This document shows, in pieces, positions 4,495-16,058 of a stretch of 64,000 bases of DNA. The notes below the pieces were generated by a model. That model was not told the origin of the DNA, ran no database searches, and saw only the letters and a program-made list of their open reading frames with translations. Source of the DNA: Heliophilum fasciatum (GTDB taxonomy: Bacteria; Bacillota; Desulfitobacteriia; Heliobacteriales; Heliobacteriaceae); NCBI RefSeq assembly GCF_004341395.1, contig NZ_SLXT01000002.1, forward strand, positions 62,001-126,000. The letters run 5' to 3'. Made by a program: the position numbers and the translations under genes. How positions within the stretch are numbered: the first letter of the stretch is position 1; each line of letters begins with the position of its first letter.

Positions 4495-4821
4495 CTACTC
4501 ATGGGTTCCCCCTGCCAGGTTGAGGATGACAACTCCGGAAATAATCAAACCGATAGCAAAGATTTTAATCATGCTTATCTGCTCTTTAAATATGAAAAAG
4601 CCAATCACAGCAATGAGAGCCGTACCCACACCCGACCAAATTGCATAGGCAATGCTCACATCGATCTTTTTTAATGAAAATGTAAGCATGGACAAACTCA
4701 ATATATAAAATATGCCCATCGCGATCGATGGAATGAGCTTGGTGAATCCATTTGAATATTTCATCGAAGTTGTACCCACCACTTCGAAGCCAATTGCCAG
4801 GACTAAATATAACCAGTGCAA
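4495..4821 (-). CDS. Small multidrug resistance (SMR/EmrE-like) transporter
   Basis: A 108-aa protein with four membrane helices of the SMR family, which works as a dimer exchanging protons for cationic drugs or guanidinium-type compounds. The essential membrane Glu is present in helix 1 (AIGFEVVGTTSMKYS, Glu13, matching EmrE Glu14). Helix 3 reads AIWSGVGTALIAVIGF. The start is TTG 4821, seven bases after GGGAGG. This gives a standard SMR N-terminus, while the longer frame overlaps the upstream gene. Only 17 bases separate it from the prenol-kinase/DUF92 gene, so the two are probably co-transcribed. SMR proteins often pair; no partner gene is present here. Confidence 0.88.
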   Translation of the reverse strand: MHWLYLVLAIGFEVVGTTSMKYSNGFTKLIPSIAMGIFYILSLSMLTFSLKKIDVSIAYAIWSGVGTALIAVIGFFIFKEQISMIKIFAIGLIISGVVILNLAGGTHE

Positions 4822-4838
4822 TATAAAACCTCCCGCTT

Positions 4839-6455
4839 TTAAGTGAACCAAGCTGCCACAACCACAGCCACGCCGGCACCCATGGCCGAACTGATAAAGT
4901 TAACCAGATCATTATCCATCCAACGCCAACCCCGGCTGTAACGATTAGGCACACCGCTTTTGGTGCGCTTTTTTTCTGTCTCTTTGCCCGTTTCCGCGTT
5001 CACATACATGACCTGCACCGTAGCGCCCATCAAGCTGTCGGCCAGGGAGCCGCCTAACCCACCGATCATGCCAGCCAGAATGATCCACCAACCGTCCACA
5101 AAGCCTGCCAGCGGTACTCCCGGTGCGTTCACTCCGGGTACATTCACGCCAGCCGCGTTCACTCCAAATGCGCTCACACCAAGTGCTTCCACTCCAGCTG
5201 CATTCACTCCGGCAGTTCCGCCCAGCATACCAGCCACGCCCACGAAGACCCACACCGTCACGCCGATCAGTAGGCCGCCCAGGAGCGTTGCTGTCGTTCC
5301 AAGCGGCGTAATCCCACCGCTCGTTCCCGGCACGACAGGCTTACCGGTGGTGATCAAGCGGGGCCGACTTTTGCTTAACACACCGATTTCCGTCGCCCAC
5401 GTATCGGCGTTGACTGTAGCCATACAGCCGATGAAAGCGGCAAACAGCGCCGGCTCACCGGGAAAGTAATAATGAAGCAGCGCCAGCACGCCGCCAAAGC
5501 CACCGTTCGCTAAGGCCTGCCCAAAGTCGCGCCGGCTCCCCTTATCGAACTTCTCCTCGGCGACGACATTTTTCTGCGCTTCCTTATACTTCGACAAAGC
5601 CGAACTGTAGACAAAAAAAGCGACCAACGTCAATCCCCAGATCCAGCCGCCAAAGCCAAAGATCAGCGTACCCACCAGGATCGCCCCGGCCACACCGCTT
5701 TCCGCCAGGGAGCGCCGTCGGTACGCCAGCCACCCGATCAGCGAGCTTAAAACGAGGCCCGTCAGGACCATCGACACCGGAAAGCGATCATGGAGCATGA
5801 GCCAAAGAAGACCGCCCGTCCCCAAGGGCACGGCCACATTATCGAGCCCTTTGAGAGAAACTGCTTCCAGCACCGTGGCGATCACTGCCAGGACCAAGCT
5901 CACCATGATGATCGGCAGTACACCCAAGTCCGGGCGTAGCCACGCCAGCGTTACCGCGATGACCAAAAACGAAACGACGGCCATGGCCAAACTGCCTTCA
6001 TAGGTCCGGCGATGTCCGCCGATCATGTAGACATGCTTACCCATCGCCTGCCCGATAATGGCCGCAAAAGCATCACCCCAAGTCATGATCATCGTCGCCG
6101 CCACCGCTACTTCCACTTCGCCGCGCGGCCAAAAGATCAACAGTAGCAGCGTCACCGATGCAGCAAAATAAACCGTCCCCAGCGTATCGCCGGCAAGGTC
6201 GACGGCTTTATTCAGGCGAAAGCGGTAACTGATATAGTTGAGCACGATAAAGGAACTGATCGGGATCACCCCGTATGTCCAGTGATCAAAAATCGCCACA
6301 GCACCGACGATCCACATCCCTGCCCCGATATGGACAATTTTGCGGGTAAATTCCGGCGGATAGCCACGCCATTTTTGTACCAGTGTCGCTACGATCAATA
6401 ATCCCAGCACATACCCGTAGGAAGCGATCAAGCCAAAAAGATCAGATTGCGTCAT
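4839..6455 (-). CDS. Fusion of a dolichol/phytol-kinase-like domain and a DUF92 domain
   Basis: A 538-aa multi-pass membrane protein in two parts. Residues 1-220 resemble the CTP-dependent polyprenol kinase/cytidylyltransferase group (TRKIVHIGAGMWIVG; MTWGDAFAAIIGQ; RTYEGSLAMA). Residues 230-538 are a DUF92/TMEM19-type domain (RRRSLAESGVAGAILVG, CMATVNADTWATEIGVLS, GGLGGSLADSLMGA). In plants and cyanobacteria the two domains are separate proteins, phytol kinase (VTE5) and phytyl-phosphate kinase (VTE6). By analogy this protein could phosphorylate a prenol twice to its diphosphate. Substrate is not shown. A seven-unit pentapeptide expansion interrupts the DUF92 part. An SMR exporter follows. 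Confidence 0.8.
   Translation of the reverse strand: MTQSDLFGLIASYGYVLGLLIVATLVQKWRGYPPEFTRKIVHIGAGMWIVGAVAIFDHWTYGVIPISSFIVLNYISYRFRLNKAVDLAGDTLGTVYFAASVTLLLLIFWPRGEVEVAVAATMIMTWGDAFAAIIGQAMGKHVYMIGGHRRTYEGSLAMAVVSFLVIAVTLAWLRPDLGVLPIIMVSLVLAVIATVLEAVSLKGLDNVAVPLGTGGLLWLMLHDRFPVSMVLTGLVLSSLIGWLAYRRRSLAESGVAGAILVGTLIFGFGGWIWGLTLVAFFVYSSALSKYKEAQKNVVAEEKFDKGSRRDFGQALANGGFGGVLALLHYYFPGEPALFAAFIGCMATVNADTWATEIGVLSKSRPRLITTGKPVVPGTSGGITPLGTTATLLGGLLIGVTVWVFVGVAGMLGGTAGVNAAGVEALGVSAFGVNAAGVNVPGVNAPGVPLAGFVDGWWIILAGMIGGLGGSLADSLMGATVQVMYVNAETGKETEKKRTKSGVPNRYSRGWRWMDNDLVNFISSAMGAGVAVVVAAWFT
5106..5210 (-). repeat. 15-bp tandem repeat coding for GVNAA-type pentapeptides
   Basis: Seven in-frame 15-bp units inside the DUF92 domain encode GVNAA, GVEAL, GVSAF, GVNAA, GVNVP, GVNAP and GVPLA. 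Each unit on the plus strand ends in a variant of CACTCC. The stretch lies in a loop between membrane segments and looks like a minisatellite expansion. Confidence 0.9.
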
Positions 6456-11916: not shown

Positions 11917-13305
11917 TTATCCAAAAAAGGCATTGGCCACCAGTAAGGACACCAAGGACGTGGCCCAAGCGATGGTCGTCGGCACCGACCAGACTTTTAA
12001 CTGTTCACGCGTATCTTCGATGCCGAGCATCCGGTTAACCACCCAGAACAAGCTGTCATTAAAGTAGGAGAAGACAAAGGCACCCATGGCCGCTGACTGG
12101 GCTGCAAAGACCGGGTTGACGTTCATATTGGCCAGAATCGGTGCGGCAATCGAAGAAGCCGTAATCATGGCTACCGTACCACTTCCTTGAATTAACCGTA
12201 CCAGTGTCGCGATGACAAAGGGAAGCAAGATGGCAGGCAAAGCCGTTTGCGCGATCAAGTTGGCCATGTAGTCACCGGCGCCGCTGTCACGCAGCACTTG
12301 ACCGAGAGCACCACCGCCACCGGTAACCAAGATGATGATCCCAGCCGATGTGACGCCTTCTTCCATCCGTTTCAGCACTTCTTTTTTGTCATCCCGACCT
12401 GTCAGTCCATAGATCGCGATCAGGAGGCCAATGCCTGTCGCAATGATCGGCGTACCCAAGAAGATGAAGGCATCGGCGACCAAACCGGTAGCTTTCATCG
12501 CCGCCAGCACCGTATTCGCCAAAATCAACAGGACCGGTACAATGATCGGAGCAAAGGAAATCCATGTCGATGGCAGATTTTTTTCTTCCTTGCTTTGCAT
12601 CCAGTCCGCATAGGCTTGTTGTAATTGCGGCCGTTCCCAGTTCATGCCTGTTTCATCAGGCAACGTATAGATTTTTTTACCCAGCCACATCGCATAGAGC
12701 ACACCGGCGATAACCACCGGTATAGCAAAAACCATACCCCAGAGAATCATCGCCCCCAAATCAGCCTTGAAAATCCCTGCAGCCCCGAGCGGACCTGGCG
12801 TGGGCGGTACAAGATGGTGCGTGGCAGCCAATCCAATCGCTAAGGAAATGCCCAGCGTTACGGCTGATTTTTTTGTTTTTCTGGATAACGCCTTGACCAG
12901 GGGCATCAAGATGACAAAACCGGAATCCACAAAAATCGGAATGGAGACCATGTACCCCGTCAAGGCCAGCGCCCATTCTTCTTTTTTCTTGCCTAGATAC
13001 TTGAGAAAAGTATAGGCCATTTTTTCGGCAGCACCCGATACTTCAAGAATCCGGCCCATCATTACACCAAAGCCGATGACGATACCGATGCTGCCCAAGG
13101 TACTGCCAAAACCATTGGAAATCGACTTGGCTACGGCCGGGGCGGCCATACCACCGACGAGGCCCGTAACGGAAGCAGCGATGATCAAGGCCGGGAAGGC
13201 ATGCACCTTGGTTTTGAGCACCAGAAAAATCAACAGAAACACACCCAGGGCGAGGCCAATCATCATTTGTGAGCCTGATACAGCAGGAACAGCAGCTTGT
13301 GGCAT
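11917..13305 (-). CDS. GntP-family carbohydrate-acid:H+ symporter
   Basis: A 462-aa membrane permease with about 12-14 helices. Family features include IGFGVMMGRILEVSGAAE, SIPIFVDSGFVILMPL, ATHHLVPPTPGPLGAAGI and the GGGGALGQVL segment. GntP proteins import gluconate and related sugar acids. Its position as last gene of the DUF1537-kinase/PdxA2 operon says the substrate is probably a four- or five-carbon sugar acid instead of gluconate. AAGGAGGCG precedes the ATG. Confidence 0.9.
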   Translation of the reverse strand: MPQAAVPAVSGSQMMIGLALGVFLLIFLVLKTKVHAFPALIIAASVTGLVGGMAAPAVAKSISNGFGSTLGSIGIVIGFGVMMGRILEVSGAAEKMAYTFLKYLGKKKEEWALALTGYMVSIPIFVDSGFVILMPLVKALSRKTKKSAVTLGISLAIGLAATHHLVPPTPGPLGAAGIFKADLGAMILWGMVFAIPVVIAGVLYAMWLGKKIYTLPDETGMNWERPQLQQAYADWMQSKEEKNLPSTWISFAPIIVPVLLILANTVLAAMKATGLVADAFIFLGTPIIATGIGLLIAIYGLTGRDDKKEVLKRMEEGVTSAGIIILVTGGGGALGQVLRDSGAGDYMANLIAQTALPAILLPFVIATLVRLIQGSGTVAMITASSIAAPILANMNVNPVFAAQSAAMGAFVFSYFNDSLFWVVNRMLGIEDTREQLKVWSVPTTIAWATSLVSLLVANAFFG

Positions 13306-13334
13306 GAGAATACGCCTCCTTACAAACGGACTTA

Positions 13335-14342
13335 TTACCTGGTGCCTTTAATGAAATGGGGTGCATAGCGAACTGCTAACAAAATCGCTTCCGTCATCGA
13401 TACGGAGCTGGCTTTACCGGTCCCGGCAATATCAAAAGCCGTCCCATGATCAACGGAGGTACGTAAAAAGGGCAATCCATTGGTTACCGCCACCGTTCGC
13501 TCAAAATCAACCATTTTGGTGGCGATATGCCCCTGATCGTGATATAAAGACAAGACTGCATCATAAGCACCTTTACGGCCAAAGTGGAAAACCGCATCGG
13601 CCGGTACCGGGCCCACCACATTCAGCCCTTTGGCCCGTGCAGCGGCAATGGCCGGAACGATTTGCTCATCTTCTTCGTGGCCAAACAAGCCGTGTTCGCC
13701 ACTGTGGGGATTAAGACCGGCTACGGCAAAGGACGGCTTCGCAATCCCTAAGCGTTCCATGGCCGCCGTGCAGCGAATCAAATAATCAAGTACCCGTTCT
13801 GTCGTAATCAAATCACAAGCTTGCCGCAGGGACACATGGCGGGTCAAGAAAAAAACACGCAGGCCTTCCACCTGAAACATCGTGAGTGGATCAGCAGATC
13901 CTGATAAGTGGCCGAGCATTTCCGTGTGTCCGATGTGCGGGATCCCGGCGGCTTTTAAGGCTTCCTTATTGATCGGCGTCGTGGCCATGGCATCAATGGA
14001 ACCGTCCATGGCCAACGTCACTGCCCGCTCAATATAATCATAGGCGGCTTGTCCGGCCATCGCTTGTACCTCACCCATGCAGAGCGCCGCCACATCGACA
14101 TTGGCCAAGTCCATCAAATCGATCGTTCCTGCCTGATAACGGCCGGCCGCCGGTTGTTCGATCGGCTGGATTTGCAGCGTAAGATCGCAAAATCGTAACG
14201 CTTGCCGAAGCACAGCCGCATCGCCAATCACCAATGGCCGCGCTTTGGTGTAGAGAGCTTCATCCGCTAAGGCTTTAACGACAATTTCCGGACCGACGCC
14301 GGCCGGATCACCCATCGGAATGCCGATTATGGGACGCGTCAT
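13335..14342 (-). CDS. pdxA2: PdxA2-type 4-phospho-acid-sugar dehydrogenase
   Basis: A 335-aa NAD-dependent oxidative decarboxylase of the PdxA family. N-terminal [15 protein letters not shown], metal-binding His motifs [25 protein letters not shown] and [11 protein letters not shown] are all present. PdxA itself makes vitamin B6; the PdxA2 branch acts on 4-phospho-D-erythronate or 4-phospho-L-threonate and sits beside DUF1537 kinases, exactly as here. The start ATG 14342 has GAGGAG nine bases upstream and gives the usual N-terminus. The gene lies between the kinase and the GntP permease. Exact stereochemistry of the substrate is not readable from sequence. Confidence 0.88.
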
Positions 14343-14418
14343 CGTTCCCATCTCCTCACAATTTTGTATTTGTATTTGCCCTTGCTATCTTGATCACAAA
14401 GTTGGCAAAAAAGAAAAA

Positions 14419-15747
14419 TCACGTTGCCGGCACTGCCGGATAGACCTCATTGGAAATCTTGGTCAGCAGGTAATCGACACAATTGCAGATGGCCTGATCA
14501 TCGCCGACGAGACCACCCTTGGTGATGATCGGCATTCCCGGATAGCTGCCACCGATCAAGCGACCATAGGCCGCCAAGGGAACCACTTCATCCTTCACTT
14601 CGATCGCTGCCGCTTCTAAGGCTCGGCAAACGGCAACCGTTACATCGCCGCCGCTGGTATATAAGCCACCGACTTCACCGCGGGCTCGGGCCACCACTGC
14701 AGCGGTAATCCGCGCCAATCCGGCGGTAATCCGCGTCGTCACTTCTTCTTCAGTTATCGCCCATTGCTGGGCTACTTGCGTAAGATTGAGTCGATCGCTT
14801 TCATCGCGCATCGTCCGAATACCGAGCACGGGGAACTCCTCCAGTTGCCCCATGATCTCACTGGCAACCCGGTCAACTTCTCCCTCCACACGCTCCGGAT
14901 TGATCAAAGCTCGTGCATCGACAAAAGCCAAATAACTGCGGTAGCTGTTCTCCACTTCCTTTAACTGGCGGCGGGCCAATGGAGTAGCGCTGCCAACGGC
15001 CAAAAATACTTTTTGCCCACGACCACGCACTGGCGGCGGCAGCAAGCAAGAAGCCAGTGCCATCGTAAAGGGACCGGGATCGACAGCAATGATCGGCAGC
15101 TTCGTAGCCAACGCTCCTTGCGCAATCGTTTCGAGGTCTACCTGGGTGGTTGCATCCATGACCACCAGACGTCGTCCGGCCTGCTGATGCTCCAGCAGGG
15201 CAGTTGTAACGGCTTCTTTTCCTTGGAGAGTCACCGTCAGCGGAATGTGCCCGACGGGATACTTGGACTGCGCTGCAAAAAGTTCCGTCACTATACTGCC
15301 GCGGACAGGTGTTTTGGGATCACGGGCCACATCGGTTTTTTCAAGGGGCACCCCATGAACCAGCAAATAGCCACCGATCGTTACCCGTCCGGACGCCGGG
15401 AAGGCAGCTACGACAACAGCCATGCTCTCATCACCAAGCACATCCAGCACTGCATCGGTCTCAGCGCCTAAGTTGCCGCGCAGTGTACTGTCGATACGTT
15501 TGGCAAACATCAAAGGGGCTCCCTTGCGCATCGTCGCTGCCGCCTCGGCCACGCGCCGGTACGCTTCCTGTGCATCAATGGCCCGGCTGTCCGTATTGAT
15601 GGCAATCACATCGTACCCGGCATACTGTTCGGTATCATCCATATCCAACTGCAAAAACGTCGCTGTGGTATAGCCCTTGCGGGCCAGCAACACTCCGGTT
15701 GCATTGGAACCGGTTAAATCATCGGCAATAATGACGATACGGCCCAT
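14419..15747 (-). CDS. Four-carbon acid sugar kinase family protein (DUF1537)
   Basis: A 442-aa two-domain ATP-dependent kinase. The N-terminal IIADDLTGSNATG (residues 5-17) binds the sugar acid; a C-terminal nucleotide domain shows TSGGDVTVAVCRAL and GGSYPGMPIITKGGLVGD. Known members (DtnK, LtnK, OtnK, OiaK) phosphorylate D-erythronate, L-threonate or related acids such as 3-oxo-isoapionate. ATG 15747 is preferred to 15753 because AAGGAAGG abuts the earlier codon. It is first in the operon with pdxA2 and gntP. Substrate remains inferred. Confidence 0.88.
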   Translation of the reverse strand: MGRIVIIADDLTGSNATGVLLARKGYTTATFLQLDMDDTEQYAGYDVIAINTDSRAIDAQEAYRRVAEAAATMRKGAPLMFAKRIDSTLRGNLGAETDAVLDVLGDESMAVVVAAFPASGRVTIGGYLLVHGVPLEKTDVARDPKTPVRGSIVTELFAAQSKYPVGHIPLTVTLQGKEAVTTALLEHQQAGRRLVVMDATTQVDLETIAQGALATKLPIIAVDPGPFTMALASCLLPPPVRGRGQKVFLAVGSATPLARRQLKEVENSYRSYLAFVDARALINPERVEGEVDRVASEIMGQLEEFPVLGIRTMRDESDRLNLTQVAQQWAITEEEVTTRITAGLARITAAVVARARGEVGGLYTSGGDVTVAVCRALEAAAIEVKDEVVPLAAYGRLIGGSYPGMPIITKGGLVGDDQAICNCVDYLLTKISNEVYPAVPAT

Positions 15748-16058
15748 AGTCATCCTTCCTTCCGGTTGTTCCAGATGCTCCGAGAAAAGGGGTTACACAA
15801 TCCGTACATCCATGTCTAAGGTGAGCAGTTGCCGATCAAGCATCCCAGTTTCTTTTGCGCCCGCCCACCGTTACAGTATAGTGTGATTCCCGGAAGCTCA
15901 AACAATTCCGCAGCGATTTTTAAATCATTCGTGATTACTGTCAATTATTTACATTCCGCCAAACGCCGGGCCAATAAAAAAACCTTGCCAACCAAGTGCG
16001 GCAAGGTATCTTCAATATTACAACATGCGATGTTACAACATTGATACAGATCAACGAA
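15748..16058. other. Intergenic stretch with the promoter of the acid-sugar operon
   Basis: No gene is visible. It must hold the promoter for the kinase-pdxA2-gntP operon (minus strand), though no clear hexamer pair stands out, and it contains the terminator of the small gene at 16059-16217. Confidence 0.5.
15975..16007 (-). terminator. Terminator of the 52-aa gene
   Basis: ACCTTGCC (15982-15989) pairs with GGCAAGGT (16000-16007), followed on the minus strand by seven T residues. The only minus-strand gene that could use it is the short one at 16059-16217. Confidence 0.8.

Follow-up and report, generated by a model that had tools for sequence, protein, structure and literature searches.

A fused prenol-kinase-like and DUF92 protein of phototrophic heliobacteria, a candidate enzyme for farnesol salvage

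Can a single polypeptide return a free prenol to its diphosphate, and does such a protein serve bacteriochlorophyll in an anoxygenic phototroph? The question is raised by a gene at 4839-6455 of the window, which is the whole 64,000-nucleotide stretch of contig NZ_SLXT01000002.1 of Heliophilum fasciatum that was analysed. The initial annotation, made from the sequence alone, read this gene as one protein joining a prenol-kinase-like domain to a DUF92 domain and, on the premise that the organism is a heliobacterium, as a candidate for farnesol salvage. The premise holds, as the source genome carries both pshA (PsaA_PsaB) and BchG above the curated cut-off. Heliobacterial bacteriochlorophyll g is esterified with farnesol, and BchG favours farnesol over longer alcohols (PMC7143216). 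Prenol salvage enzymes are unequivocally known only in plants and cyanobacteria, with Plasmodium recently added (PMC9782597, PMC10849223).

Domain architecture and sequence context

The gene is a single open reading frame of 538 amino acids on the minus strand (4839-6455, as are all features of the gene given below) that begins with ATG and encodes two domains. The frame is unbroken across the domain junction and full-length two-domain homologues, with 60-64% identity, are present intact in seven further heliobacterial genomes, so the fusion is not an artefact of assembly or of a frameshift. The N-terminal domain (aa 1-223, 5787-6455) is of the SEC59/VTE5 prenol-kinase-like type by family profile and motif counts. 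The C-terminal domain (aa 236-527, 4875-5750) matches Pfam DUF92 (PF01940) with E = 1.5e-68 and 231 bits, against a curated cut-off of 27.5. The intact frame, this Pfam match and the motifs of the N-terminal half together bear out the two-domain reading of the initial annotation.

DUF92 has been described by Makarova and colleagues as related to the cytidylyltransferases, with the catalytic Asp pair retained (PMC5898192). Two core motifs of the domain, NADTWATE (5388-5411), containing D351 and E356, and DSLMGATVQ (5013-5039), containing D473 and G477, are followed by the C-terminal motif RGWRWMDNDLVN (4899-4934), containing G509, N515, D516 and N519; D516 is conserved in 91% of 58 DUF92 sequences and all of the other named residues in 100%. 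The catalytic Asp is retained in the kinase-like N-terminal half as well as in the C-terminal DUF92 half. Profiles of the two halves align weakly with one another (hhalign probability 26%), with D128 of the first placed against D351 of the second.

An in-frame 15-bp tandem repeat of about 6.3 copies (5116-5210), detected by a tandem repeat finder and modelled with pLDDT below 50, encodes an AGVNx-like pentapeptide insert in a loop of the DUF92 domain. In the alignment this insert is missing from the other heliobacteria; the fused protein of Heliorestis convoluta carries insertions of a different kind. The C-terminal half was modelled with pLDDT 76.8, and Foldseek paired it with CdsA (4q2e) only at E = 4.1 and a TM score of about 0.3. 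For a prenol kinase of this type some eight transmembrane helices would be expected; the model of the N-terminal half has eight helices within aa 3-222, where pLDDT is only about 45-70. The full-length model is of low confidence (pLDDT 67) and gave no significant match in a structure search of the PDB; sequence searches of the PDB gave no useful match.

The fused gene lies outside the photosynthesis cluster and has no operon context; its neighbours vary from one heliobacterial genus to another. Immediately downstream, in the same orientation (4495-4851), is a gene that reads as a small multidrug resistance (SMR/EmrE-like) protein, whose likely TTG start and GGGAGG ribosome site are about 20 bp or less from the stop of the fused gene; this neighbour is not kept in other heliobacteria. 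Elsewhere in the window, at 11917-15753, a GntP-type permease, a PdxA-like dehydrogenase and a DUF1537-like four-carbon sugar acid kinase stand in a row that, by reading of the sequence, resembles a D-threonate/erythronate catabolic cluster.

The N-terminal half: prenol kinase or CdsA

A Pfam search with aa 1-224 returned no match at E values up to 10, PF01148 included. The identity of the N-terminal half is drawn instead from its motifs, from the similarity of its profile to the CdsA core, from its large family of homologues and from the published match of the N-terminal domains of SEC59-DUF92 proteins to SEC59/COG0170 (PMC5898192). R38, D128, G135, G139, G154, E197 and D205 are invariant in 59 homologues, while K39 and H42 are conserved in 97% and E153 in 95%. 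Searches of viral contigs found no relatives of the N-terminal half.

Two sets of residues define the putative active site. The first is a charged clamp, RKxxH, present as RKIVH (6330-6344; R38, K39 and H42). The experimentally active farnesol/geranylgeraniol kinase of Plasmodium has such a clamp, modelled as Arg29, Lys30 and His33 (PMC10849223), and the spacing in the heliobacterial protein is identical. The second is the CTP-transferase core motif GDxxAxxxG...EG(S/T), made up of TWGDAFAAIIG (6051-6083), a nucleotide/metal-site motif containing D128, and RRTYEGS (5991-6011), a second part of the nucleotide site containing E153 and G154; EG[ST] is found in 56 of the 59 homologues. Over 75 columns, hhalign pairs this block with the CTP-transferase core of CdsA at a probability of 92%, which places the N-terminal half in the CdsA superfamily.

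The same alignment is what would favour reading the N-terminal half as a CdsA-like cytidylyltransferase, whose product would be a CDP-lipid and not a monophosphate. The C-terminal signature KDx[GSA]..HGG..DR.D, however, occurs in eight of nine heliobacterial CdsA proteins and in none of the 59 N-terminal halves, whereas the RKxxH clamp occurs in 57 of the 59 family members and in none of the nine CdsA proteins. Each heliobacterial genome moreover encodes one genuine CdsA as a separate gene, which is its sole match to PF01148. On the signature and the clamp, membership of CdsA was rejected, and a cytidylyltransferase role is very improbable. Neither of the findings that the initial annotation had named as fatal to a kinase, a clustering of this half with CDP-diglyceride synthases or a lack of kinase active-site residues, was encountered: the CdsA signature is absent, and the clamp and nucleotide-site motifs are retained.

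Distribution and origin of the fusion

Within the family Heliobacteriaceae the fusion is present in all eight genomes that carry pshA and was not found in the only genome that does not, which is 87% complete. In the rest of the class, strong matches to the N-terminal half (over 100 bits) were found in 4 of 74 genomes (G034, G049, G055 and G572). The proteins of the first three are 456-472 aa long, and DUF92 is absent from those of G034 and G049; in these two (456-459 aa), which were left aside, the RKxxH kinase domain is joined to an unrelated C-terminal sequence that appears to be hydrophobic. In G572, a class member that is not phototrophic, a 496-aa frame (L162:754-2241) opens with the kinase-like domain and apparently encodes a fusion, of which only the N-terminal half was profile-matched. 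Since this half resembles the other Bacillota clade, the sequence suggests a separate acquisition.

Phylogeny of the N-terminal half places the heliobacteria in one clade (support 100/99), which falls within a set containing 12 BchG-positive and one BchG-negative Chloroflexota (98/96; 100/99 after removal of long branches). Two other kinases of BchG-positive Chloroflexota fall outside this set, and a tree in which all 14 BchG-positive Chloroflexota were forced together with the heliobacteria, leaving out the one BchG-negative sequence, was rejected. In the tree of the C-terminal half, the heliobacteria adjoin the DUF92 proteins of BchG-positive Chloroflexota with moderate support (80/92), and holding the two together was not rejected (AU p = 0.61). 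These phylogenies suggest that the nearest relatives of both halves are separate genes of Chloroflexota that make bacteriochlorophyll. One DUF92 gene filed under Candidatus Parcubacteria (RFKD01000048.1) is nested among Chloroflexus sequences in the C-terminal tree, and its contig is probably a misbinned piece of Chloroflexus.

The distribution among 201 Chloroflexota genomes follows bacteriochlorophyll synthesis. BchG was detected in 14 (13 over the cut-off and one fragment), all of which encode DUF92 and a VTE5-like protein of at least 175 bits. A strong VTE5-like kinase, taken as at least 120 bits in BchG-negative genomes, is thus present in 14 of 14 BchG-positive versus 8 of 187 BchG-negative genomes (Fisher p = 2.5e-16); when any VTE5-like match is counted, the latter figure becomes 31 of 187 (p = 1.3e-10). 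The 14 genomes are related to one another, so that these p values overstate independence and are descriptive only. The VTE5-like and DUF92 genes of Chloroflexota are separate and unlinked, on different contigs or far apart, and the neighbours of the Chloroflexus kinase (STAS and anti-sigma-like genes, judged by eye) are uninformative.

DUF92 is found in 68 of the 201 Chloroflexota genomes and is far commoner than the kinase, so the two are not always together. This, and the fact that the function of DUF92 is based mainly on plant VTE6 (PMC9782597), would allow that the heliobacterial protein catalyses a single step, with a prenol kinase in the N-terminal half and another role for DUF92 in this lineage, or the reverse. 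The invariant Asp in both halves and the recurrent pairing of the two domains, whether fused or adjacent, which argues for consecutive steps, make this a rather improbable account.

The kinase and DUF92 genes are adjacent in several Bacillota and fused in others, and a tree test rejected a single origin of the heliobacterial fusion and that of the main fused clade of Bacillota (AU p = 6.3e-10). The simplest account is that a two-gene system was common to, or passed between, the two phototroph lineages, and that the fusion took place in the ancestor of the heliobacteria.

Proposed function and known systems

The fused protein is probably a bifunctional, integral-membrane, CTP-dependent salvage enzyme that converts farnesol to farnesyl diphosphate and supplies BchG. 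The N-terminal VTE5/FOLK/SEC59-type domain would phosphorylate farnesol to farnesyl phosphate, and the VTE6-type DUF92 domain would convert this to farnesyl diphosphate. BchG would then re-esterify bacteriochlorophyllide g with the diphosphate, the net result being the recycling of the bacteriochlorophyll tail alcohol. This order of reactions is the most likely function because chlorophyll synthase takes prenyl diphosphates and not free alcohols (PMC9066304), Chloroflexus builds fatty alcohols from the medium into bacteriochlorophyll c (PMC9066304), and the plant and cyanobacterial enzymes VTE5, FOLK and VTE6 favour CTP (PMC9782597). A kinase activity that is lacking in E. coli is present in plant etioplasts (PMC9066304). 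The use of CTP, the two reactions, farnesol as the substrate and the liberation of farnesol within the cell are presumed in this scheme, and a preference for farnesol is suggested by the esterifying alcohol of the pigment.

The active-site motifs, the heliobacterial host and a kinase clade that tracks bacteriochlorophyll synthesis in Chloroflexota lend support to the salvage role first put forward in the initial annotation. Counted in its favour are the presence of the fusion in every pshA-positive genome, the motifs of both halves, the shared clade with kinases of BchG-positive Chloroflexota and the co-occurrence in that phylum; the position of the gene outside the photosynthesis cluster and its unconserved neighbours in heliobacteria count against it. 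Closely similar pairs or fusions occur in non-phototrophs, so the chemistry as such is not tied to chlorophyll. Their occurrence in Bacillota that are not phototrophic, in Mycolicibacter and in archaea, where the context is one of uppS and not of chlorophyll (PMC5898192), is what a general salvage of isoprenoid alcohols (farnesol, geranylgeraniol or polyprenol) would predict, with menaquinone, undecaprenyl lipid or carotenoid as the end use and the confinement to phototrophs of the family a coincidence. This broader role is unlikely, given that almost no non-phototroph of the class has the protein and that its closest relatives are in bacteriochlorophyll-making Chloroflexota. That a two-step kinase is dedicated to the tail alcohol of bacteriochlorophyll across anoxygenic phototrophs, as separate proteins in Chloroflexota and fused in heliobacteria, stands at about an even chance.

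If the salvage role is correct, heliobacteria gain a route for farnesol salvage, and a dedicated kinase would supply the activation step so far missing from the path by which exogenous alcohols are incorporated into bacteriochlorophyll. In Chloroflexota, the co-occurrence of the kinase with BchG points to a candidate route by which such alcohols enter bacteriochlorophyll c. Heliobacteria can be cultured, and one polypeptide that may carry out both phosphorylations offers a compact study system, so that tail-alcohol recycling in anoxygenic phototrophs becomes directly testable.

The SEC59-DUF92 architecture is not itself new, being known from archaea and present also in non-phototrophic Bacillota and a Mycolicibacter. 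What is new is the presence of the fusion in all phototrophic heliobacteria examined, the kinship with the bacteriochlorophyll-linked kinases of Chloroflexota and the evidence that the fusion arose independently. The tie between the fusion and photosynthesis is likewise new and testable, and a role in tail recycling is plausible. The literature searched, with incomplete coverage, held no mention of heliobacterial DUF92 proteins or prenol kinases.

An earlier description of this architecture comes from Methanosarcina, with an isoprenoid kinase step as the predicted role (PMC5898192). Compared by description, the archaeal SEC59-like and DUF92 proteins (arCOG02245, Mbar_A3310; PMC5898192) share with the heliobacterial fusion the order of domains, the catalytic Asp in both halves and the predicted isoprenoid kinase step; the archaeal proteins are without a link to chlorophyll, whereas the heliobacterial fusion shares a clade with phototrophic Chloroflexota. 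The fusions of other Bacillota (G289, G182, G105, G312 and G241; G093 and G173; G342; G572) and of Mycolicibacter (L009) have, or in G572 apparently have, the same two domains in one frame of about 490-520 aa, but their N-terminal halves belong to clades different from that of the heliobacteria. Chloroflexus and other BchG-positive Chloroflexota hold the nearest relatives of both halves, but in two genes and not in one polypeptide.

Among characterized enzymes, the N-terminal half may be set beside VTE5, FOLK and PolK of plants, Synechocystis and Plasmodium, with which it shares the RKxxH clamp in the spacing of PolK and a proposed role in phosphorylating farnesol, geranylgeraniol or phytol with CTP. 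In the published account these kinases and the second kinase are separate proteins (PMC9782597), whereas the heliobacterial pair is fused. The C-terminal half resembles the phytyl-phosphate kinase VTE6 (DUF92, COG1836) in its strong Pfam match and in the proposed second phosphorylation; COG1836 has been linked to phytol phosphate metabolism and is reported to be essential in Synechocystis (PMC3223725). VTE6 is unfused and acts on phytyl phosphate, whereas the heliobacterial domain is joined to the first kinase and its predicted substrate is farnesyl phosphate.
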